Positions 2,667 to 12,275 of a stretch of 64,000 nt of DNA are shown here, in pieces. Positions within the stretch are counted from its first letter, which is position 1. Each line of letters opens with the position of its first letter. Position numbers and translations under genes: made by a program. The stretch covers positions 1 through 64,000 of the forward strand of contig CAJXIY010000001.1 in assembly GCA_913054495.1 (NCBI GenBank). The letters run 5' to 3'. The notes beneath the pieces are model-generated. The model had not been told where the DNA came from. It searched no databases and saw nothing but the letters and a program-made list of their open reading frames with translations. This stretch comes from an uncultured Gammaproteobacteria bacterium. Lineage in GTDB: Bacteria > Pseudomonadota > Gammaproteobacteria > Pseudomonadales > Pseudohongiellaceae.

Positions 2667-2779
2667 AACCGGGGGCAGTACGGGTCGCCGTCAAGTCTGA
2701 TCTCCGTAACTTTAGTTCGCAGCATAAATATAAAACCAGCAATACTACCCGCAAAGTCCCTATGGTAGGATTTGACACC

Positions 2780-3910
2780 ATGAGAGCACTAACGCGAATA
2801 GCAAGCCTCGCTGTAACCCTGGCGATATCCTTGTCCGGGTTCTCAAGCTGGGCCGCAGAGGCCAGGGTGGCGATCGACGTCGCCTCGCTGGGACCGCAGA
2901 TCGGTGAGCGGGTACCCGATTTTGCCCTGCCAGACCAAGCTGGCCGAATTCAGACCCTTGATTCGATCCGTGGCCCGAACGGTACCATGCTGCTGTTTCA
3001 CCGTTCGGCGGATTGGTGACCCTACTGTAAAGCGCAACTCGTGGAGTTGCAGGGCCGCATGGAAGAACTTAAGAACTCTGGTATTGGTATCGCAGCGATT
3101 AGCTACGACTCACCCGCCGTACTCGCCGACTTCGCCGAGAGGCGCGGAATTACATATCCGTTGCTGGCGGACGTAGGCTCGTCGGTGATCACGGAATTCG
3201 GTATTCTCAATACCGTGGCGGCAGAAGGCATGGGTCCCAACCAGGATGATCCCGGCGTTATTGCCGATGTCGCGAAGTATGTGTCCGTCTTTGGCTCCAC
3301 TCAAGCAATTGTAGGCACCCCCTTTCCTGGCACTTTCATGCTCGACGCCCAGGGTCACGTCAGCTCGCGTTTCTTCGAGGAGTTCTACCGAGAACGCAAT
3401 ACCACGTCGAACGTGATGTTGAAACTGGGCATCGGTCTGTCTCCCATAGCCGCGATTACGGGAGAGACCACGCAGTTAAAGTTCACCGCCTACCCCAGCA
3501 ATACCACGGTGTTCGTCGGTACCCGTTTTTCCATCGCAGTCGACGTAGAACCGGGTCCAGACATGCATGTATACGCGCCGGGCGCGGAGACCTTGGGTTA
3601 CCGCGTCATCGGACTCAATCTGACTCCCTCCAGCCATCTCCGTTTCGAGCCAGTTGAATTTCCAGAGTCGGAGATCTATCACTTCGAGCCGCTCGACGAA
3701 TACGTGCCCGTGTATCTACGTCCGTTTACGTTGTTGCAGGAAGTCGTGGTTGAGGCCTCTGTCGCGGCAGCATCTGCTCTGGAAGACATTGACACACTGA
3801 CCCTGACGGGTAGCTTTGACTACCAGGCCTGCGATGACGAATTCTGCTTTAATCCGGTCTCGGTCCCGCTGACCTTCACCCTCGATTTAGAAGTCCATGA
3901 TAATCAGTGA
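2780..3910 (+). CDS. Redoxin/DsbD-like selenoprotein with in-frame TGA read as selenocysteine
   Basis: The frame runs from ATG 2780 through TGA 3017-3019 to the stop at 3910 (376 residues). Read through, the TGA gives HRSADW-U-PYCKAQLVELQ, a thioredoxin-fold redox motif in which Sec80 replaces the usual first Cys and Cys83 is the partner (UxxC). Residues 1-24 form a signal peptide, so the protein is periplasmic or envelope-located. Residues about 40-220 are the AhpC/TSA-redoxin domain. Residues about 240-376 resemble the N-terminal domain of DsbD, including YQACDDEFC (Cys351, Cys356). A thiol-disulfide or peroxide reductase role is inferred. ATG 2780 is chosen over ATG 2762 because TAGGA precedes it and the signal peptide begins there. 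A conventional reading would call two broken ORFs. The ORF after the TGA keeps frame and conserved domains, which argues for recoding rather than decay. No sel genes are in this window. Confidence 0.85.
3034..3050 (+). promoter_or_regulatory. Candidate bacterial SECIS stem-loop
   Basis: GCAACTC-GTG-GAGTTGC forms a perfect 7-bp stem closed by a GUG loop, inside the coding sequence. The stem starts 14 nt after the TGA, and the loop begins 22 nt after it with G as its first base. Known bacterial SECIS elements need a short upper stem, an apical loop about 16-37 nt after UGA, and a G in the first two loop positions. All three hold here. Confidence 0.75.
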
Positions 3911-3926
3911 TATGGGGTCAGGTCAT
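3911..3926 (+). repeat. Dispersed GGGGTCAG element, copy 1
   Basis: ATGGGGTCAGGTCA starts within a few bases of the selenoprotein stop codon. It matches the core of similar elements at 8535, 17240 and 24101. It may be a remnant of a REP-like or mobile-element end. Confidence 0.35.
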
Positions 3927-4019
3927 GCAAGTTGACACAATCATCGAATTCATCCCTTGCTAAACATCCCACGCCGCAGGAAACTAGTAAGCCCCGTCGT
4001 GGCTATTGAACGAATCATC

Positions 4020-4484
4020 ATGAATCAATATCGAGTCTTAAAACCACTTTTCGTACTGCTCCTCCTGGCCTGCGGTCACGCCAGCGTGCAAGCACAAACG
4101 CAGCAGGCAAGCCAGATCAGCATCGGCAATGGCGAGAACAACTGGATTACGGTAGAAGGTGTTATCCGGGATCAATCAACGCTGACGTTTTCAGAAGTGC
4201 AGATTGCTGGCGATGGCTGGTTGGTGATACATCCCTTCGAAGACGGAGCCCCCAACGGGGATAAATATGTCGCCTCAACCTACCTCGAAGACGGCAAAAA
4301 TCTCAACGTGAGCATCAATGTCCACAAAGGACTCGTCACCGGTGAGATGTTTATCGTGATGCTGCACCGGGATGTAAACGAGAACAAGGTACTGGACTTC
4401 GTTTTTATCGACGATCAAAACGTGATGGATACCGCCGTGTTCGAAGGCAGCACAATGATCGGTCATGCCATCGCCGCACCCTAG
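4020..4484 (+). CDS. Small exported protein, DUF7282-like
   Basis: This 154-residue protein starts with a signal peptide (MNQYRVLKPLFVLLLLACGH, cleavage near AQA) and is predicted to be exported. The mature part reads as a single beta-rich domain: an N-terminal ITVEGVIRDQSTLTFSEV segment, a GWLVIHPFEDG segment and a final D-V-N-E-N-K-V-L-D-F turn. This pattern recalls DUF7282-type domains (value followed by WLVIH, then YLEDGKN). No catalytic motif is visible. ATG 4020 is preferred to an upstream TTG at 3957 because it begins the signal peptide. It follows the selenoprotein gene after about 110 nt. The function is unknown. Confidence 0.8.
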   Translation: MNQYRVLKPLFVLLLLACGHASVQAQTQQASQISIGNGENNWITVEGVIRDQSTLTFSEVQIAGDGWLVIHPFEDGAPNGDKYVASTYLEDGKNLNVSINVHKGLVTGEMFIVMLHRDVNENKVLDFVFIDDQNVMDTAVFEGSTMIGHAIAAP

Positions 4485-4616
4485 TCAATAAATTAGGCAA
4501 GCCAGGCTTGAGCAGTTCACGACTAACGGGCTGAGTAATGCTGCCTGCTGCAAGCTGAAGAGTTTGTGTTCGTGTCGTTGAACAAAACTACTTGAAATAA
4601 CCCCGTCTCCTCCCTC

Positions 4617-5858
4617 ATGTCCAACAACGCTTCTCACGACTACGATGTCATCATTCTGGGTGCAGGTGCCGCCGGTTTGCTGTGTGCAATTACCGCCGCT
4701 AACCGTGGTCGGCGCGTGTTGGTGCTGGAGAGAGCGAACAAAATTGGTAAGAAAATATTGATGTCGGGAGGCGGGCGCTGCAATTTCACCAACCGCTTTG
4801 TGGAGGCCGAGCACTTTATTTCCAACAACCCGCATTTCTGTAAATCGGCGTTGAGTGCTTATACCCCGAGGGATTTCATTGCCCTGGTTGAGAAGCATGG
4901 TATCGAGTATGAAGAACGCCGGCACAGTCAATTATTTTGCCAGCATTCGGCTAAAGACATCCTCACCATGCTGGTTGATGAATGTGAGCTATCCGGCGTA
5001 GAGATACGCACCCACTGTGATATCAATCGTGTCGAGGTTCTGGAACGAAATTCGAAGAAGCCACACTATCGCGTTGAAGTGGAGCAGGGCCAAGCCACAA
5101 CCAGGAAATTATCAGGAATGAATTGTCAGTCACTCGTGGTTGCCAGCGGCGCGCTGTCGGTACCATCTTTAGGTGGCAGCGGTCTTGGTTACAAGATCGC
5201 CAGGCAGTTTTCTCTGCCGCTTACCGAGAGGCGAGCCGGACTGGTGCCGTTTATGTTTACTGATTCCATCAAGCCCCTGTGCGGGCGTCTGTCCGGGTTG
5301 TCCCTGGAAGTTGAAGTCAGATGCAATGCACAGGTTTTTACCGAACAGTTGCTATTTACTCATCGCGGCATCAGTGGTCCGGTCATACTGCAAATTTCCA
5401 ATTACTGGCGTGCCGGCGATGAAATCAGAATCAATCTTTTGCCCGCAACCGATGTCGGCGAGTGGCTATTACAGATCAAGCGGGAAAAAGTAAAAACCCG
5501 GCTAAAAACCTTACTGCGACAGAAGCTCGCTAAATCGCTGGTAAATGAACTAGAGGCGCTATGGTGGCCACGGTTTGCCCACACCCCAATAGTTGAACTT
5601 TCTGCCACCCAGTTGCGAGTCATAGGACGGCAAATTAATGCCTGGCACCTGAAGCCATCGGCTACGGAAGGCTATCGTACCGCCGAAGTAACGCTGGGTG
5701 GTGTCGATACTGACGCCATCAGTTCCAAGACCATGGAGGTAAAAGCACAGGCGGGGCTCTATTTTGTGGGTGAAGTGCTGGATGTTAGCGGTCATCTGGG
5801 TGGCTTTAATTTTCAGTGGGCATGGTCCTCCGGCTATGTGGCGGGGCAGGTTGCGTAG
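4617..5858 (+). CDS. NAD(P)/FAD-dependent flavoprotein, BaiN/YhiN (HI0933) family
   Basis: The 413-residue protein has the N-terminal Rossmann dinucleotide motif ILGAGAAGLLCAI (residues about 12-25). The family signature KIGKKILMSGGGRCNFTN lies near residues 42-60. The C-terminal GEVLDVSGHLGGFNFQWAWSSG is the second FAD-contacting segment of the HI0933-like family (TIGR00275). Members are cytoplasmic flavoproteins of mostly unknown substrate. A clostridial relative (BaiN) acts in bile-acid 7-dehydroxylation, but that role is not expected here. Length and both FAD motifs are normal for the family. ATG 4617 gives the standard N-terminus. It stands alone, 132 nt after its neighbour. Confidence 0.9.
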   Translation: MSNNASHDYDVIILGAGAAGLLCAITAANRGRRVLVLERANKIGKKILMSGGGRCNFTNRFVEAEHFISNNPHFCKSALSAYTPRDFIALVEKHGIEYEERRHSQLFCQHSAKDILTMLVDECELSGVEIRTHCDINRVEVLERNSKKPHYRVEVEQGQATTRKLSGMNCQSLVVASGALSVPSLGGSGLGYKIARQFSLPLTERRAGLVPFMFTDSIKPLCGRLSGLSLEVEVRCNAQVFTEQLLFTHRGISGPVILQISNYWRAGDEIRINLLPATDVGEWLLQIKREKVKTRLKTLLRQKLAKSLVNELEALWWPRFAHTPIVELSATQLRVIGRQINAWHLKPSATEGYRTAEVTLGGVDTDAISSKTMEVKAQAGLYFVGEVLDVSGHLGGFNFQWAWSSGYVAGQVA

Positions 5859-6154
5859 GGGCTCAGCCATGAGGGGACCGGAAGTCCTTGAAAAGCCGTG
5901 GATTGACCAGGACCACATCAGGCCTATCCGGACCAGCCCCAGAGCTAGTTCAGAGTGAGAACAAACGGGTGCTTGCAAAGGCTAACAACTCTGTCGCTGA
6001 AAATAGTAACTTTGTCCTCTTTTTAGCACCTTGTGCCTGCAAAAGTGCTACATTTGGAGCCGATCCGAGAAACTTCCAGAGCCGGCACCCGCAGTAAGGC
6101 GCAGCGATGCAGAGCCAGGCCTGGAACACTAATCTCAAAACAGGGGATGGAACT
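5859..6154. other. Intergenic stretch without a supported gene
   Basis: Short open frames here have no protein-like composition or ribosome binding site. No tRNA, terminator hairpin or repeat stood out. It presumably holds the promoter of the downstream haem/copper protein gene. Confidence 0.5.
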
Positions 6155-7549
6155 ATGAAAGATTCTAATAAGATGCTGTTGACGGGGCTGCTAGCTTTGC
6201 TTGCTTTTCCGGCGATCTCATTCGGCCAGACCGGAGAAATTACATTCCATAAAGACATCGTACCTATCTTGCAGCGTAGCTGCCAGAACTGTCACCGGAT
6301 TGGCGGCGGCGGTCCGATGTCTCTGGTAACTTACGATGAAGTGGCGCCTTTCGCCGGCTTGATTGAATTTAAGACCGGTTTGCGTGACCGGGCCGGTGCC
6401 ATGCCACCGTGGTATGTCGAGAAGAACATCGGCATACAGCGCTTTAAGAATGACACCTCCCTCAATGATGAAGAAATTGCTGCCATATCTACCTGGGCGA
6501 GAAGCGGAACACCGGAAGGAGACCCTGCGGATGCACCGGAGCCGCTGGTTTTCGACGACAGCATAAAATGGAAAGCCGGCACTCCGGATCTAGTCGTCAA
6601 ACTGGGTGAGCTTACCAAGCTGGCTGGAACTGCCGACTGGTGGGGCGAGATTGAGCCGGTGCCAACCGGGATGACCGAAGACCGCTATGTAAAATCGGTG
6701 GAGGTCATTGAGGTAAACGACATCGACATGACACAACTCTCTGGCACCGTCGGCGGTCGTTATATCTTCCACCATATGCTCTGGTTTACGGCACAAATGG
6801 ACAGCGAAGGAAACGTTCAGCGTGGCTTCAATCCACCATGGCCGGTACATGAAGTCGGGCGTAATGCGGATATTTTTGATGATAAAACGGGGCGTCTTTT
6901 ACAGGCAGGATCTGCGATTATTTCTGACTCGATTCATTTGCACTCCAACGGCAGAGATACTACCGCCCACCTGGAGATTGGTTTCATCTTCCAAGACCGG
7001 GACTTCGAGCCCAAGTATAGAGATTCGATCTTTTTTACCGGCAATGGTGTCGATATAAGCGTGGTTCCGAATCAGACAGATCAGGAACTGCATGCCTATA
7101 GTATTCTCCCAGCCCATACCAAGATCGTCTCTTTCGAGCCCCATTTGCATGCCCCTGGCACTCGTATGTGTCTGGAGGCGATCTGGGGTCATCAGGTCGA
7201 AACCCTGTCCTGTGTAGGCTACGACCATAACTGGGTGCGTACCTATCAATTTGAGGATTCCGCGGCACCACTTTTACCCGAAGGCACCATTCTTCATATC
7301 ACTGGTTATATGAACAACACGGACACCAATATGAATATCCCGGACCCGCGCAACTGGCAGGGATCCGGTAACCGATCTACGCAGAACATGTTTCTCGATC
7401 TCGGTATCCGGGTGACCATGAATGAGGAGCAATTCCTGGAAGCCATGGCGGAGAGGCGTGAGGTACTCAATATGGGACCGAATGACCATGTCATTGGCTG
7501 CCCTCTGTGCGGTGCAACTTTGGTATCACCGATCGAAGCAGAAGATTAA
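6155..7549 (+). CDS. Exported c-type haem / copper type II monooxygenase-like protein
   Basis: The 464-residue protein has a signal peptide (residues 1-24), then a CQNCH haem c motif (Cys43, Cys46, His47) with a plausible axial Met in AGAMPPW. The remainder resembles the two-domain copper type II ascorbate-dependent monooxygenase fold (PHM/DBH-like). FHHMLW (His206-His207) fits the CuH site, EPHLHAPGTRM (His330, His332) fits the CuM HxH pair, and the late STQNMFLDL provides a candidate CuM Met. A CPLC pair ends the protein. It is probably a periplasmic oxidoreductase receiving electrons through its own haem; the substrate is unknown. ATG 6155 (GGGATGGA upstream) is chosen over 6107 because the signal peptide begins there. 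The gene after it, 50 nt away, may be co-transcribed. Confidence 0.85.
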   Translation: MKDSNKMLLTGLLALLAFPAISFGQTGEITFHKDIVPILQRSCQNCHRIGGGGPMSLVTYDEVAPFAGLIEFKTGLRDRAGAMPPWYVEKNIGIQRFKNDTSLNDEEIAAISTWARSGTPEGDPADAPEPLVFDDSIKWKAGTPDLVVKLGELTKLAGTADWWGEIEPVPTGMTEDRYVKSVEVIEVNDIDMTQLSGTVGGRYIFHHMLWFTAQMDSEGNVQRGFNPPWPVHEVGRNADIFDDKTGRLLQAGSAIISDSIHLHSNGRDTTAHLEIGFIFQDRDFEPKYRDSIFFTGNGVDISVVPNQTDQELHAYSILPAHTKIVSFEPHLHAPGTRMCLEAIWGHQVETLSCVGYDHNWVRTYQFEDSAAPLLPEGTILHITGYMNNTDTNMNIPDPRNWQGSGNRSTQNMFLDLGIRVTMNEEQFLEAMAERREVLNMGPNDHVIGCPLCGATLVSPIEAED

Positions 7550-7599
7550 ATGGAGACAGACCACGTTTCCCGTTTATACAATTGAGGATATTAGAGAAA

Positions 7600-8532
7600 A
7601 TGAAACTACTAGCCAATGAATTGAGCATGGGTATGAAATTTCTACTGCTCGGCCTGTTGTTCCTGGTTACAATCCCTCTGCTGCAGGCAGAAACATTTAT
7701 GCAAAGCAGACCTGTCTGGCCTGCCTTCGAGGGTTGGCGCCCCAATCCTGATGGAACCTTCAATCTTATGTTCGGTTACATGAACGAAAATTGGGAACAA
7801 CAGCCCTTCGTGGAAATTGGAGATAGTAATTTTTTCTCACCGGGTGAACCGGACCAGGGTCAGCCGACCAATTTTTTCCCGCGCCGCAATCGCTTCACTT
7901 TCGAAGTATCGGTGCCCGCCGATTGGGGTGATAGGGAATTGGTGTGGACGCTGAATGTTAATGGTGTAGAAGCCAAGGCTTATGGGACGCTGAAACCGGA
8001 TTACCTGGTGGATAATATGGTAATTGCGTCTGAAACCGGTTCTTTGGGTATTGGGGTCAGTAGTCCTGAATCCAGAGCCAATATCCCTCCGGTACTCACA
8101 ATTCAGGGCGATGAAGTTCGCACGGCCGAGGTTGGTGAAGCGATTACACTGGTGGTTCAGCTTGAGGATGATGGGCTGCCAAGGTCCAGAAGCAGTTCTA
8201 CCAGGAGTGAAAGCGATCTGCTGCGCGTTCTGTTTCGCGCTCCCCAAAAACCTACGGTAAACAAAATAAATGCACTGTACATGAGCTGGAATGTCTATCG
8301 TGGGGAAGGCAGAGTTACGTTCGATCCGCCGCAAACCAAGGTATGGGAAGACACTCGTGTGTCGGCCAACTCCCCCTGGGGATCCTTGTGGTTGCCGCCA
8401 GAAATTCCGGACGACGGCATGGTTGAAGTAACCGCGACATTCGATGAACCCGGTACCTACGTGTTATGGGTACGCGCCGATGACGGTGGGCTCTATGCCG
8501 ATGGCTACATTACGGTTAACGTAACCGAGTAG
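7600..8532 (+). CDS. Exported protein of unknown function
   Basis: I do not recognise a family. The protein (310 residues from ATG 7600) begins with a signal peptide (FLLLGLLFLVTIPLLQAET); an alternative start at 7633 would give a more typical length before the hydrophobic core. The mature region has a WPAFEGWRPNPDGTFNLMFG segment, two beta-sandwich-like parts rich in V/T, and the C-terminal GTYVLWVRADDGGLYADG typical of Ig/cadherin-like folds. It lies 50 nt downstream of the haem/copper monooxygenase-like gene on the same strand and probably belongs to that transcription unit. A role as its periplasmic partner is only a guess. Confidence 0.75.
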   Translation: MKLLANELSMGMKFLLLGLLFLVTIPLLQAETFMQSRPVWPAFEGWRPNPDGTFNLMFGYMNENWEQQPFVEIGDSNFFSPGEPDQGQPTNFFPRRNRFTFEVSVPADWGDRELVWTLNVNGVEAKAYGTLKPDYLVDNMVIASETGSLGIGVSSPESRANIPPVLTIQGDEVRTAEVGEAITLVVQLEDDGLPRSRSSSTRSESDLLRVLFRAPQKPTVNKINALYMSWNVYRGEGRVTFDPPQTKVWEDTRVSANSPWGSLWLPPEIPDDGMVEVTATFDEPGTYVLWVRADDGGLYADGYITVNVTE

Positions 8533-8534
8533 AA

Positions 8535-8550
8535 ATGGGGTCAGAGTCTG
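8535..8550 (+). repeat. Dispersed GGGGTCAGAG element, copy 2
   Basis: ATGGGGTCAGAGT starts 2 nt after the stop codon of the preceding gene, the same position relative to a stop as copy 1. Further copies are at 17240 and 24101. Confidence 0.4.
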
Positions 8551-8596
8551 AGATGTTTCGCCACCGACCAGCTGACCTGCCAAGACAATTAAGCAT

Positions 8597-9088
8597 ATGA
8601 CAAAACTCCTGAAGCGAGCTGGTTTAAGCCTGCTGCTGTTGTTGCTGGTCGCGCTGGTGTCCCTGCGAACCTTCGGTTTTGAGCCGCAAGATCGGCGTCC
8701 TGGGCTGTGGTTGGTGGGGGATCTGGTAACGGAGCCGGTCTCGGACTGGATCTTTACCGATCAGTTTGGGGAAATATTTGTACAGACCAATACCCGCTAT
8801 GGCATTCCACATTCCATCACTACTTACTGTGTGGAGTACAACGGCAATTTTTACCTGTTCTCCGCCTACTACACCGGTGGTGTCTTTCCCGACACCAGAG
8901 GCTGGAACAGGAATGTGATGCGGGATCCCCGGGTGCGACTGAAAATGGGCGGTCGACTCTATGACCAGACCTTAAGATATGTCACCGATGAGGCCACGAC
9001 CGTACCGGTCATACAGGGGTTTGAGAGTAAGTACCCGGAATGGGAAAGCCCGGGTAACGAGAATGTGCATATTTTCCTGGTGCAATAA
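8597..9088 (+). CDS. Membrane-anchored or exported small protein, possibly split-barrel fold
   Basis: The 163-residue protein has an N-terminal hydrophobic helix (LSLLLLLLVALVSLRTF) acting as signal or anchor. The remainder has short beta-strand segments including GIPHSITTYCVEYNGNFYLFSAYY and NVMRDPRVRLKMGGRLYDQT. The second segment recalls the pyridoxamine-phosphate-oxidase-like/deazaflavin-dependent nitroreductase split barrel, where a similar R-x-P-x-V-R-L-K strand pairs with a flavin site. Sequence support is weak and no cofactor residues can be assigned. It lies between exported-protein genes on the same strand. Confidence 0.7.
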   Translation: MTKLLKRAGLSLLLLLLVALVSLRTFGFEPQDRRPGLWLVGDLVTEPVSDWIFTDQFGEIFVQTNTRYGIPHSITTYCVEYNGNFYLFSAYYTGGVFPDTRGWNRNVMRDPRVRLKMGGRLYDQTLRYVTDEATTVPVIQGFESKYPEWESPGNENVHIFLVQ

Positions 9089-9198
9089 GAGTTGGCAGCG
9101 GGAATTACGCGCAAGTGCCAGAACAAATAACCCTGTCCCTAATTGTCTGAATAAGCTACCTTTTAGCAAGCTCACATAATCTTCACTCGGAACACCTT

Positions 9199-10218
9199 AT
9201 GAAAAAAACTAACTCGCTGATTCTTCCATGCCTCGCCCTGGTGCTTACCTGGTCTTTCTCTGTCATCAGTTTTGCCGCCGATGACTATGTGGCGCCTCGC
9301 ACCCAGTGGGGACAGCCGGATCTACAGGGAGTCTGGAATTTTTCTTCCAACATACCGATGCAGCGCCCGTCGCGGTTTGGCGATCGCCAATTTCTCACGG
9401 CAGACGAGATAGCCGAGGCCCAGGCTCGTCGGGCCGAAGCCGATGCTAACTCCGATGGCGCCCTGCCGATCGAGGGAGTCGATGGTTCCTACAATGATTT
9501 CTGGATCGAGAACGCCGGCATTGGCAGCAACGCTCGGACTTCACATATCATCTATCCTGCCGACGGCCGCCTGCCGGAGTTGGCGGAAGGTGCAATAAGA
9601 CAGAGAGGCGTCTACGGCGGTGCCACCACCGGTGACTCGCGCCCCGTGCGTCTATCAGCTGGCGGTATTGGCACCGACGGCCCGGAAGACCGGGGTCTTT
9701 CCGAGCGCTGCCTGGTTGGCTTCAACGCGGGCCCACCGTTTTTTCCGAGTCTATACAATAACAATGTACAGATTTTTCAGAGTAAAAATCATGCGGTGTT
9801 CCTCACCGAAATGATCCATGATGCTCGCATCGTTCAGATATTCGAATCCGCCGCTGATCAGACGGCACTGGACGCCGATGTGAGGCTGTGGTCAGGTGAT
9901 TCCCGTGGCCATTGGGATGGTGACACCCTGGTAGTAGTAACACGTAATTTCAATGACCTCACTGCGAGCTTCGGTACCGCCGGCACCTCCGAAGACAAAG
10001 TACTCACGGAGCGATTTACCCGTGTAGGTCCCTATACCGTCGATTATGAATTCACCATCGATGATCCCTCGACCTTCACCGATAAGTTCACCGCCATCGT
10101 CTCCATGACCAAGGTGGCGGGCCAGCTTTACGAGTACGCCTGCCATGAGGGCAACTATGGCATGGTGAACATCCTGCGTGGTGCCCGGGTTCAGGAAGCG
10201 CTAGCCGACGCGCAATAG
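9199..10218 (+). CDS. Exported protein of an uncharacterised family (SRGHWDGDTLVV motif)
   Basis: This 339-residue protein starts with a clear signal peptide ending near SFAADD. The mature N-terminus has RTQWGQPDLQGVWNF, and the core has GDSRGHWDGDTLVVVTRNFND. Both are hallmarks of a family common in soil and marine Proteobacteria and Acidobacteria, often beside PQQ dehydrogenases or amidohydrolases. The function of the family is not established to my knowledge. A conserved Cys-His (EYACHEGNYGM) near residue 320 could be functional. The PQQ dehydrogenase gene follows after 95 nt on the same strand, which suggests a shared periplasmic pathway. Confidence 0.8.
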   Translation: MKKTNSLILPCLALVLTWSFSVISFAADDYVAPRTQWGQPDLQGVWNFSSNIPMQRPSRFGDRQFLTADEIAEAQARRAEADANSDGALPIEGVDGSYNDFWIENAGIGSNARTSHIIYPADGRLPELAEGAIRQRGVYGGATTGDSRPVRLSAGGIGTDGPEDRGLSERCLVGFNAGPPFFPSLYNNNVQIFQSKNHAVFLTEMIHDARIVQIFESAADQTALDADVRLWSGDSRGHWDGDTLVVVTRNFNDLTASFGTAGTSEDKVLTERFTRVGPYTVDYEFTIDDPSTFTDKFTAIVSMTKVAGQLYEYACHEGNYGMVNILRGARVQEALADAQ

Positions 10219-10313
10219 GCCTCGCTTGTGATCGCTCAGAGTTAATAGGCAATGGTTTACAAGTAGATCACTGCTTGTTTAGCGTTACTTAGAGATGCTC
10301 CTCGGGCCAAGAA

Positions 10314-12275
10314 ATGAGCGCTACCGATATGAAATTAGACTTCTCCTCAATTAGACGTAGTCTGAGCTCAGTTTCCCTCAATGCAATTGTCTTGCTTGCA
10401 TGCATCTATCATGTCACCGCCATCGCACAGTTGGGCGCCACCGATGGTGAGTGGCATAGTTATGGCGGAGATGCGGGCAACACCAAGTATTCGCCGTTAT
10501 CTCAGATCAACGCCGATAACGTACAACGCCTGCAGCTAGCCTGGACCTGGACCTCGGTCGACGAAGACATCAGGGCGAAGAACGAGATAATCAGGCAGCG
10601 GGGCTCGTTTCGAAGCTATGCCTATGAGGTGACTCCATTGATGGTAAATGGAGTGCTGTACACGACGACTTCTCTCGGCCAGATCGCGGCCATCGATCCG
10701 GCCTCCGGCGAAACCCTGTGGAGCTTCGACCCGGTGTTGTACGTAGACGGCAGGCCGGCGGTCCACGGTTTCATGACCCGGGGTTTGGCCTACTGGAGCG
10801 ACGGCGAAGAAGAACGGTTGTTCTACGCCTCAGGCCGAACCTTCCTGCTCTCCATCGACCCGAAGACCGGCCGGCCGGATCCGGAATTTGGCAGCGCCGG
10901 CAGGGTTGATCTGAAAAAAGGACTCGGCCGCACCATCGATCCCAGCCTTTATGCGGTGAGTTCACCACCGATAGTGGTTGGCGATGTGGTAGTGGTAGGC
11001 TCCGCCATGACCGAAGGCACCGACTTCCGGGAAGCGCCACCGGGACATGTGCGCGGGTTTAATGTGCGCACCGGCGCGATGCAGTGGATATTCCACACCA
11101 TCCCCCAACCTGGCGAGTACGGTGCCGACACTTGGCCGGATGATGCCTGGAGAGTTACCGGCGGCGCCAATGTCTGGACCCTGATGAGCGCCGATGAGGA
11201 ACTCGGTTATGTTTACCTGCCGGTGGGTACGCCAGTCCCGGACTACTACGGCGGCCATCGCTTGGGAGACAATCTGTTCGCCAATTCACTGGTGGCTCTC
11301 GATGCCCGCACCGGGGAACGGGTCTGGCATTTTCAATTTGTGCACCATTCGGTATGGGATTACGATCCGCCCGCCGCTCCCAATCTCATCGACATCGTTG
11401 TCGATGGCCGTCCGATCAAGGCCGTCGCCCAAATCACCAAGCAGGGCTTTACCTTCGTCTTCGATCGCGCCACCGGCGAGCCAGTCTGGCCGATTGAAGA
11501 GCGCCCGGTGCCACAGTCAATCGTGATCGGTGAGCAGACCGCAGCCACTCAGCCCTATCCAACCAAGCCGCCGCTATTTCTGACTAACGGGGCGACGGAG
11601 GATGATGTTATCGATTTTACGCCGGCATTAAGGGCCCAAGGTCTGGAAATCTTTCGTCAGTATCAGGCCGGACCGTTGTATACGCCGCCGACACCGGGTG
11701 ACAATATTATTCGACCCGGCTGGAGTGGTGGCGCGAACTGGTGGGGTGCCGCCTTCGACCCGGACAGCGGGCATCTGTTCGTCCCGAGCTGGGCGCATTT
11801 TTCCCTGGTGCATATTAATCCTCCGCAAGATCCAGCATCGGATCTGATGATTCGACCGCGGGTGCGCAATCTCAGTGGCCCCGATGGTCTGCCCCTGTTC
11901 AAGCCGCCCTACTCGCAACTCGTCGCCTTCGACATGAATGCGGGTGAGAAGCTCTGGGGCGTACCGGTAGGCGAAGGGCCGAGAGATCACGAGGCCCTGC
12001 AAGGACTGGAGCTGCCTCCACTGGGCAACTTTGAAAAACTCGGCGGTCCGCTGCTCACCAAGACCCTGTTGTTCATCGGACAGGGTTTCGAGACCAACCG
12101 ACTCGGCGTGTATGACAAGCTAAGCGGCGAGGAACTGTGGTGGATGCAGTTGCCGGCTCGATTTCACGCTGCGCCTATCACGTATATGGCCGGCGGCAAA
12201 CAGTATATCGTGCTGGCGCTGGGGGGCGGCGTGAGCGGGGCCGCGGAGCGTCTCATGGCGCTAACACTACCCTGA
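10314..12275 (+). CDS. PQQ-dependent quinoprotein dehydrogenase
   Basis: The 653-residue protein has an N-terminal hydrophobic segment (residues about 24-42). It continues with GEWHSYGGDAGNTKYSPLSQI, the usual opening of quinoprotein alcohol/glucose dehydrogenase beta-propellers. Repeated W-motif segments (LVALDARTGERVWHFQFVHH, VWDYDPPAAPNLIDI, GGANWWGAAFDPDSG) match the eight-bladed PQQ fold. The VWDYD region carries the Asp pair expected near PQQ and Ca2+. It lacks a C-terminal haem c domain, and only one N-terminal hydrophobic segment is visible, so electrons probably pass to a separate acceptor. The substrate (alcohol, aldose or other polyol) cannot be told. ATG 10329 is an alternative start. 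Confidence 0.9.
   Translation: MSATDMKLDFSSIRRSLSSVSLNAIVLLACIYHVTAIAQLGATDGEWHSYGGDAGNTKYSPLSQINADNVQRLQLAWTWTSVDEDIRAKNEIIRQRGSFRSYAYEVTPLMVNGVLYTTTSLGQIAAIDPASGETLWSFDPVLYVDGRPAVHGFMTRGLAYWSDGEEERLFYASGRTFLLSIDPKTGRPDPEFGSAGRVDLKKGLGRTIDPSLYAVSSPPIVVGDVVVVGSAMTEGTDFREAPPGHVRGFNVRTGAMQWIFHTIPQPGEYGADTWPDDAWRVTGGANVWTLMSADEELGYVYLPVGTPVPDYYGGHRLGDNLFANSLVALDARTGERVWHFQFVHHSVWDYDPPAAPNLIDIVVDGRPIKAVAQITKQGFTFVFDRATGEPVWPIEERPVPQSIVIGEQTAATQPYPTKPPLFLTNGATEDDVIDFTPALRAQGLEIFRQYQAGPLYTPPTPGDNIIRPGWSGGANWWGAAFDPDSGHLFVPSWAHFSLVHINPPQDPASDLMIRPRVRNLSGPDGLPLFKPPYSQLVAFDMNAGEKLWGVPVGEGPRDHEALQGLELPPLGNFEKLGGPLLTKTLLFIGQGFETNRLGVYDKLSGEELWWMQLPARFHAAPITYMAGGKQYIVLALGGGVSGAAERLMALTLP

Follow-up and report, generated by a model that had tools for sequence, protein, structure and literature searches.

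Our computational analysis of a 64,000-nucleotide stretch of DNA (the window) strongly supports the decoding of the in-frame TGA at positions 3017-3019 as selenocysteine, and with it a genuine selenoprotein, as the original prediction had proposed. Among the homologues the site holds Cys or UGA only, the sel genes are present in the genome, and the hairpin downstream of the TGA satisfies the rules for a bacterial SECIS (bSECIS) element and has codons under synonymous constraint. A two-domain architecture, in which a redoxin domain is followed by an nDsbD-like domain, is likewise strongly supported by computation. The features are listed in Table 1.

Table 1. Positions of the gene and its features in the window. 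Residues are numbered from ATG 2762.
Feature	Position	Strand	Basis
Full selenoprotein gene	2780..3910	+	376 codons plus stop TGA 3908-3910; homologues align over the full length
AGGA, probable Shine-Dalgarno sequence	2767..2770	+	9 nt 5' of ATG 2780; suggested by sequence
Probable signal peptide, MRALTRIASLAVTLAISLSGFSSWAAE	2780..2860	+	Suggested by sequence, a low-confidence predicted N-terminal helix and hydrophobic N-termini in homologues
Redoxin (AhpC-TSA, thioredoxin fold) domain	2900..3436	+	Residues 47-225; PF00578, E=5.1e-26; fold matches AhpE, BcpB and ResA
UGA read as selenocysteine, first residue of UxxC	3017..3019	+	Alignment to Cys, selA association, frozen codons
Cys89, second residue of UxxC	3026..3028	+	Present in 73/73 UGA rows and in 7/7 Cys rows
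Bacterial SECIS-like hairpin, 7-bp stem, GUG loop	3034..3050	+	bSECIS rules, frozen codons, covariation counts
Invariant Pro189, likely a cis-proline facing UxxC	3326..3328	+	Alignment; cis-Pro suggested by analogy with ResA-type proteins
nDsbD / ScsB-alpha-like beta-sandwich domain	3455..3889	+	Residues 232-376; PF11412 in the family; model fold match to ScsB-N
Cys357 and Cys362 (YQACDDEFC), nDsbD-like redox Cys pair	3830..3847	+	Conserved 70/70 and 69/70

Reading frame and start of the gene

The read-through frame runs from the ATG at 2780 to the TGA at 3908-3910, and the sequence around the internal TGA reads GPNGTMLLFHRSADW-TGA-PYCKAQLVELQ. The translation of the window places this codon in frame within RSADW-U-PYC, with ...RSADW on its left and PYCKAQLVEL on its right, so the frame had been read correctly in the original prediction, which gave SADW and PYCKAQL as the flanks. 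Downstream of the TGA the frame stays open for 296 more codons up to the stop at 3908-3910, against a claim of about 290. A mechanical list of open reading frames cuts the gene into 2762-3019 and 3041-3910, which is the split that had been foreseen for automatic gene callers.

The read-through protein has 382 residues if it starts at the in-frame upstream ATG 2762 and 376 residues if it starts at ATG 2780. Judged from the sequence, ATG 2780 is the more likely start, because an AGGA lies 9 nt upstream of it and the probable signal peptide comes next. From this start the UGA would therefore be codon 80, in agreement with the position first given for it, while the residue numbers used here (U86, C89, P189, C357 and C362) are counted from ATG 2762.

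The neighbouring gene at 162-2663 encodes a secreted beta-propeller protein (PF09826) and is broken by an in-frame TAA at 1110-1112, with the same domain found in both halves. The interruption may mark a pseudogene or come from an error of assembly; selenocysteine is excluded for this gene because its internal stop is a TAA.

Homologues and the residue at the UGA position

Scanning 84,980 species genomes yielded 80 loci. No search pattern demanded a TGA, and the pattern over the site asked for Cys codons, a bias against UGA copies. TGA was found in 74 of the 81 resolved homologous places and TGC or TGT in the other 7, in the context W-[UC]-P-Y-C, and no residue other than Cys or UGA occurred at position 86 in these 81 places. 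A Cys had been expected here in the aligned homologues, with W, R or a gap named as the outcomes that would speak against selenocysteine; none of the latter appeared in any of the 81 places. UGA copies were found in Gammaproteobacteria, Acidobacteriota and Gemmatimonadota; the Cys copies come from acidobacteria. In a tree built without the active-site columns, a single branch parts all UGA copies from the Cys copies.

The interrupted beta-propeller gene next door indicates that broken genes or assembly errors occur here, yet a nonsense mutation or sequencing error at the TGA, in a pseudogene or misassembly, has next to no probability and was rejected: a sequencing error is implausible because more than 70 other assembled copies from three phyla, at about 58-76% identity and with the remaining frame intact, carry the same TGA, and, moreover, this codon aligns with Cys only and purifying constraint acts on the synonymous sites of the hairpin codons.

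When 245 genomes of the order were surveyed (E <= 1e-40), only the window genome had the gene, and selA was above the cut-off in 34 of the 245. The sporadic distribution of the gene in the order could reflect transfer or loss. A plasmid search returned distant redoxins only.

A UGA paralogue of about 30% identity with the same two-domain layout adjoins the first copy in a Pseudohongiella genome and in another gammaproteobacterium. The adjoining pairs lie at 3653-4714 and 5001-6146 in locus L070 and at 5888-6931 and 4624-5745 in locus L062. At least four UGA copies were found in OX638378.1 (one each in loci L057 and L085, and two in L070).

Selenocysteine machinery

The window genome (3.39 Mb, 99% complete) contains selA (572.7 bits), selD (274.9 bits) and a tRNA-Sec gene (selC) with the anticodon tca. 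The N-terminal and C-terminal parts of selB were found at two contig ends (C143 and C151), split by the contig break. Thus all of the four genes that were to be sought elsewhere in the genome are present, selB as two halves.

Across the family, selA was detected in 40 of 43 genomes with UGA copies vs 0 of 7 genomes with Cys copies (Fisher p ~1e-6), an association that rests on few independent events because UGA and Cys copies form one clade each. The three UGA genomes that lack selA are MAG assemblies; all have strong tRNA-Sec matches, and selB was above the cut-off in two of them. Three Cys-copy genomes gave tRNA-Sec matches of 49-50 bits. These were discounted as selenocysteine machinery, since they lie close to the threshold and several control genomes (Caulobacter vibrioides, Thermotoga maritima and Thermus composti) also scored above the cut-off in that search.

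Three further UGA-interrupted redoxin homologues were found in the window genome, on contigs C97 (L101, WUPFC), C16 (L102, WASWUGC) and C112 (L105, WUPFC). One of the three matches the NCBIfam WAxxUGC family with E 2.4e-74 and 250.7 bits, under the cut-off of 300. Together with the window gene, this makes at least four candidate selenoproteins of the redoxin superfamily in the organism, judged by sequence.

That suppression or a variant genetic code puts Trp or some other residue at the UGA is hardly credible: a near-cognate tRNA would be enough in principle and nothing specific speaks for it, whereas the homologues without UGA have Cys and never Trp, the genome holds the full selenocysteine machinery, and the gene's own terminator is a TGA (3908-3910).

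The SECIS-like hairpin and its frozen codons

The hairpin GCAACUC-GUG-GAGUUGC has its arms at 3034-3040 and 3044-3050 and its loop at 3041-3043. It starts 14 nt past the UGA, the loop starts 21 nt past it, and the first loop base is G. According to the rules set out in PMC13188914, a bSECIS element has a stem of 4-16 bp, a loop of 3-9 nt, a G in loop position 1 or 2 and a UGA-to-loop distance of 16-37 nt. With 7 bp, 3 nt, G first and 21 nt, the hairpin satisfies these rules; its original description, including the well-placed loop G, thus agrees with the published constraints, and its codons proved to be frozen, as detailed below. Among the 2034 TGAs on both strands of the window, a Watson-Crick stem of at least 7 bp that obeys the bSECIS rules follows 11 (0.5%), and such a stem with a 3-nt loop follows 2 (0.1%). 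In folding energy the hairpin region is unexceptional (z = -0.5), and the case was therefore built on conservation, not on the hairpin in isolation. An Rfam scan of 2700-4000 gave chance matches only, with the SECIS family absent from them.

Codon variation was compared across 147 conserved degenerate columns in 73 UGA copies. The four lowest codon entropies of the 147 columns belong to L93, E95, V94 and A91, which are exactly the hairpin codons. In the UGA copies L93 is CTC in 73/73, E95 is GAG in 72/72, V94 is GTG in 72/73 and A91 is GCG in 70/73. CTC makes up 26% of the Leu codons elsewhere in these genes, vs 73/73 at L93, and the remaining conserved Leu columns mostly have a codon entropy of about 2 bits. 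In the Cys homologues the codon at L93 is CTG, ATG or CTT and the V94 codons are mixed. The hairpin codons of the UGA copies are under extreme purifying synonymous constraint.

The codons of Q92 and L96 occur as CAA/TTG in 32 copies and CAG/CTG in 37, with 4 G-U mixed pairs and no disallowed pair (p ~1e-16 by counts). Corrected for relatedness, this covariation is not significant (4-6 changes on the tree, 4 supported independent pairs). We regard it as supporting evidence only and not as proof, because the independent changes are few.

The UGA could also be a true stop that separates two proteins, the second beginning at GTG 3041 or at a comparable start codon inside the frame. Long open frames lie on both sides of the UGA and GTG 3041 is a possible start. 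However, two such proteins would break the thioredoxin fold at its active site, with PYCKAQ translated in neither; the Cys homologues are one continuous chain; and residues 87-92, which lie between the UGA and the GTG, show full conservation among the UGA copies. We consider two separate proteins very improbable and selenocysteine insertion the better reading.

The redoxin domain

The AhpC-TSA family (PF00578) matches residues 47-201 with E=5.1e-26. AlphaFold models were confident (pLDDT 88.8 and 92.4), and AhpE and BcpB were the top solved-structure matches by both sequence and fold. The PF00578 domain and a UxxC site (UPYC) are both present, as in a Prx-like UxxC thiol:disulfide oxidoreductase selenoprotein. 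The alignment shows C89, C357 and C362 as the only conserved cysteines of the protein.

The active-site motif PxxxTxxC/U is absent, the site being RSADWUPYC. As a correction to the original interpretation, the protein is not a classical peroxiredoxin, because it is without this motif. Aligned with AhpE, the protein has C89 at the place of the peroxidatic Cys and selenocysteine at that of the motif Thr; for this reason we prefer a thiol/selenol-disulfide reductase to a peroxidase. The PF00578 domain match and the top ranks of AhpE and BcpB would nevertheless suit a true Sec-peroxiredoxin, for which the nDsbD domain would serve as recycling reductant. The missing motif and the register with AhpE argue against such a peroxidase, as does the thioredoxin-type UxxC with an invariant proline before a strand. 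We regard a peroxidase as possible, with a clearly lower probability than the reductase.

The nDsbD-like domain

The partner domain had been likened to the N-terminal domain of DsbD, and this resemblance was borne out by a Pfam match, a fold match and a Cys pair. PF11412 (DsbD_N) was detected in 34 of 35 aligned members, with a best E=2.7e-11; the window protein alone scored 23.9 bits, just below the Pfam cut-off of 25. The model of the C-terminal domain had a pLDDT of 92, and its best credible fold match was 6c29, the N-terminal domain of ScsB (TM 0.60 on the query). Fold matches to integrin and other beta-sandwich proteins were set aside, as a small part of large chains was covered. The segment YQACDDEFC aligns with YQGCADAGFC of E. 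coli nDsbD (DsbD-alpha), although sequence matches to solved nDsbD are weak (E ~0.6).

Compared with DsbD and ScsB, the protein has the nDsbD-type domain and its Cys pair and lacks the transmembrane electron-transfer and C-terminal thioredoxin domains: no PF02683 match was found in it, and the chain ends after the nDsbD-like domain. The window genome also encodes a DsbD/ScsB-like membrane protein (L106, on contig C140) with two nDsbD-type Cys motifs (CDEICIPG and CDQICIPG) before DsbD_TM and a C-terminal WCxxC.

Proposed mechanism

Most likely, the protein functions as a periplasmic thiol/selenol-disulfide reductase that is fed from DsbD/ScsB via its own nDsbD-like domain. During translation, SelB with Sec-tRNA(UCA) would bind the hairpin at 3034-3050, and selenocysteine would be inserted at UGA 3017 in place of termination. 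The product would then be exported to the periplasm, where the N-terminal thioredoxin-fold domain would present the UxxC active site opposite the invariant proline. Electrons may reach the C357/C362 pair from a DsbD/ScsB-like protein of the membrane, or else another thioredoxin of the periplasm may supply them; within the same chain they would pass to U86/C89, and the UxxC site would reduce its substrate in the periplasm, be it a disulfide, a sulfenic acid or a peroxide. We infer that the protein is exported, which way its electrons flow, that they are relayed within the chain and what is reduced. Taken as a whole, from selenocysteine at the UGA and export through the UxxC redoxin and the nDsbD-like Cys pair to a relay within the chain towards a periplasmic substrate, we hold this explanation with considerable confidence.

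Electrons might instead flow in reverse, or the C-terminal domain might be purely structural or used for docking, so that no relay within the chain takes place. The remoteness of the sequence similarity to nDsbD would allow this, but C357 and C362 are invariant (70/70 and 69/70) and, together with C89, the sole conserved cysteines. We judge such an arrangement rather unlikely and prefer the relay from C357/C362 to the UxxC site.

If the preferred reading is true, the family represents a widespread exported selenoenzyme of marine and soil bacteria that gene callers have probably split into two broken genes, and the fused nDsbD-like domain suggests that the electron source for an extracytoplasmic selenocysteine site is the DsbD/ScsB membrane system, reached via a built-in relay.

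Gene neighbourhood

The window encodes a cytochrome c-like protein, two secreted proteins of unknown family and a PQQ dehydrogenase at 6107-12000, and in 10-24 of the 81 loci the selenoprotein gene has homologues of these genes as neighbours. The recurrent cytochrome c-like and PQQ dehydrogenase neighbours in part of the family give a hint of its setting. Tentatively, and with less than even confidence, we suggest an undescribed selenoprotein subfamily of Gammaproteobacteria, Acidobacteriota and Gemmatimonadota that combines a Sec-active redoxin and its own nDsbD/ScsB-like electron-input domain in one exported chain, and that may serve copper, haem or quinoprotein oxidation systems whose genes lie close by (those for cytochrome c-like proteins and PQQ dehydrogenases).

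Comparison with known systems

UxxC Prx-like selenoproteins with a PF00578 domain were described in 2005 as 'Prx-like protein' (PMC1088965), appeared in 2008 as 'Prx-like 1' (PMC2398784) and are catalogued as 'Prx-like thiol:disulfide oxidoreductase' in PMC9312934 and PMC13188914. The class of UxxC redoxins is thus known, and the extra DsbD-like partner domain is apparently undescribed: no report of a DsbD-N domain fused to a UxxC Prx-like selenoprotein was found in the available portions of these four papers. HEU0032618.1, a 'Redoxin family protein' with UxxC in PMC13188914, could be the same protein. The window family resembles the catalogued proteins in its AhpC-TSA domain, in selenocysteine within a thioredoxin-like UxxC, in its Cys homologues and in abundance in marine metagenomes (PMC1088965, PMC2398784, PMC9312934, PMC13188914). 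However, these are listed without a DsbD-N domain in the available portions of their catalogues, whereas the members of the window family examined at full length have the C-terminal nDsbD-like domain and its Cys pair.

SelL-related proteins (NF040769) and WAxxUGC ResA-like proteins (NF041054) belong to the same redoxin superfamily. Their models gave sub-threshold matches to the window protein that cover the redoxin part only (39.4 vs 120 bits and 29.5 vs 300 bits, respectively); NF040769 matches 35/35 aligned members, with the window member far under the cut-off. No NCBIfam model was above its cut-off on the window protein, and none represents the fusion.

Fusions of a Trx-fold selenoprotein with an extra domain, usually with conserved Cys, are reported from GOS (Prx-like 3/Unknown_3, Prx-like 2/Secretin_N and others; PMC2398784), and the window protein is of this general kind. 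The Prx-like 3 fusion has CxxC and three Cys by its description in PMC2398784, whereas the window protein has a strong PF00578 match and C-x4-C. The rhodanese/DsbD fusion-like TsoB (NF045694, listed in PMC13188914) also joins a DsbD-like part to a selenocysteine redox domain, but it is rhodanese-like with two Sec in UxxxxU, unlike the redoxin UxxC of the window protein. With DsbD/ScsB alpha (nDsbD, PF11412) the window protein shares the beta-sandwich and the YQxC...C(F/Y)xP Cys pair, through matches that are weak but specific. It differs from DsbD/ScsB in having C-x4-C instead of C-x5-C, in being without transmembrane or C-terminal thioredoxin domains, and in the fusion of its nDsbD-like domain behind a redoxin.
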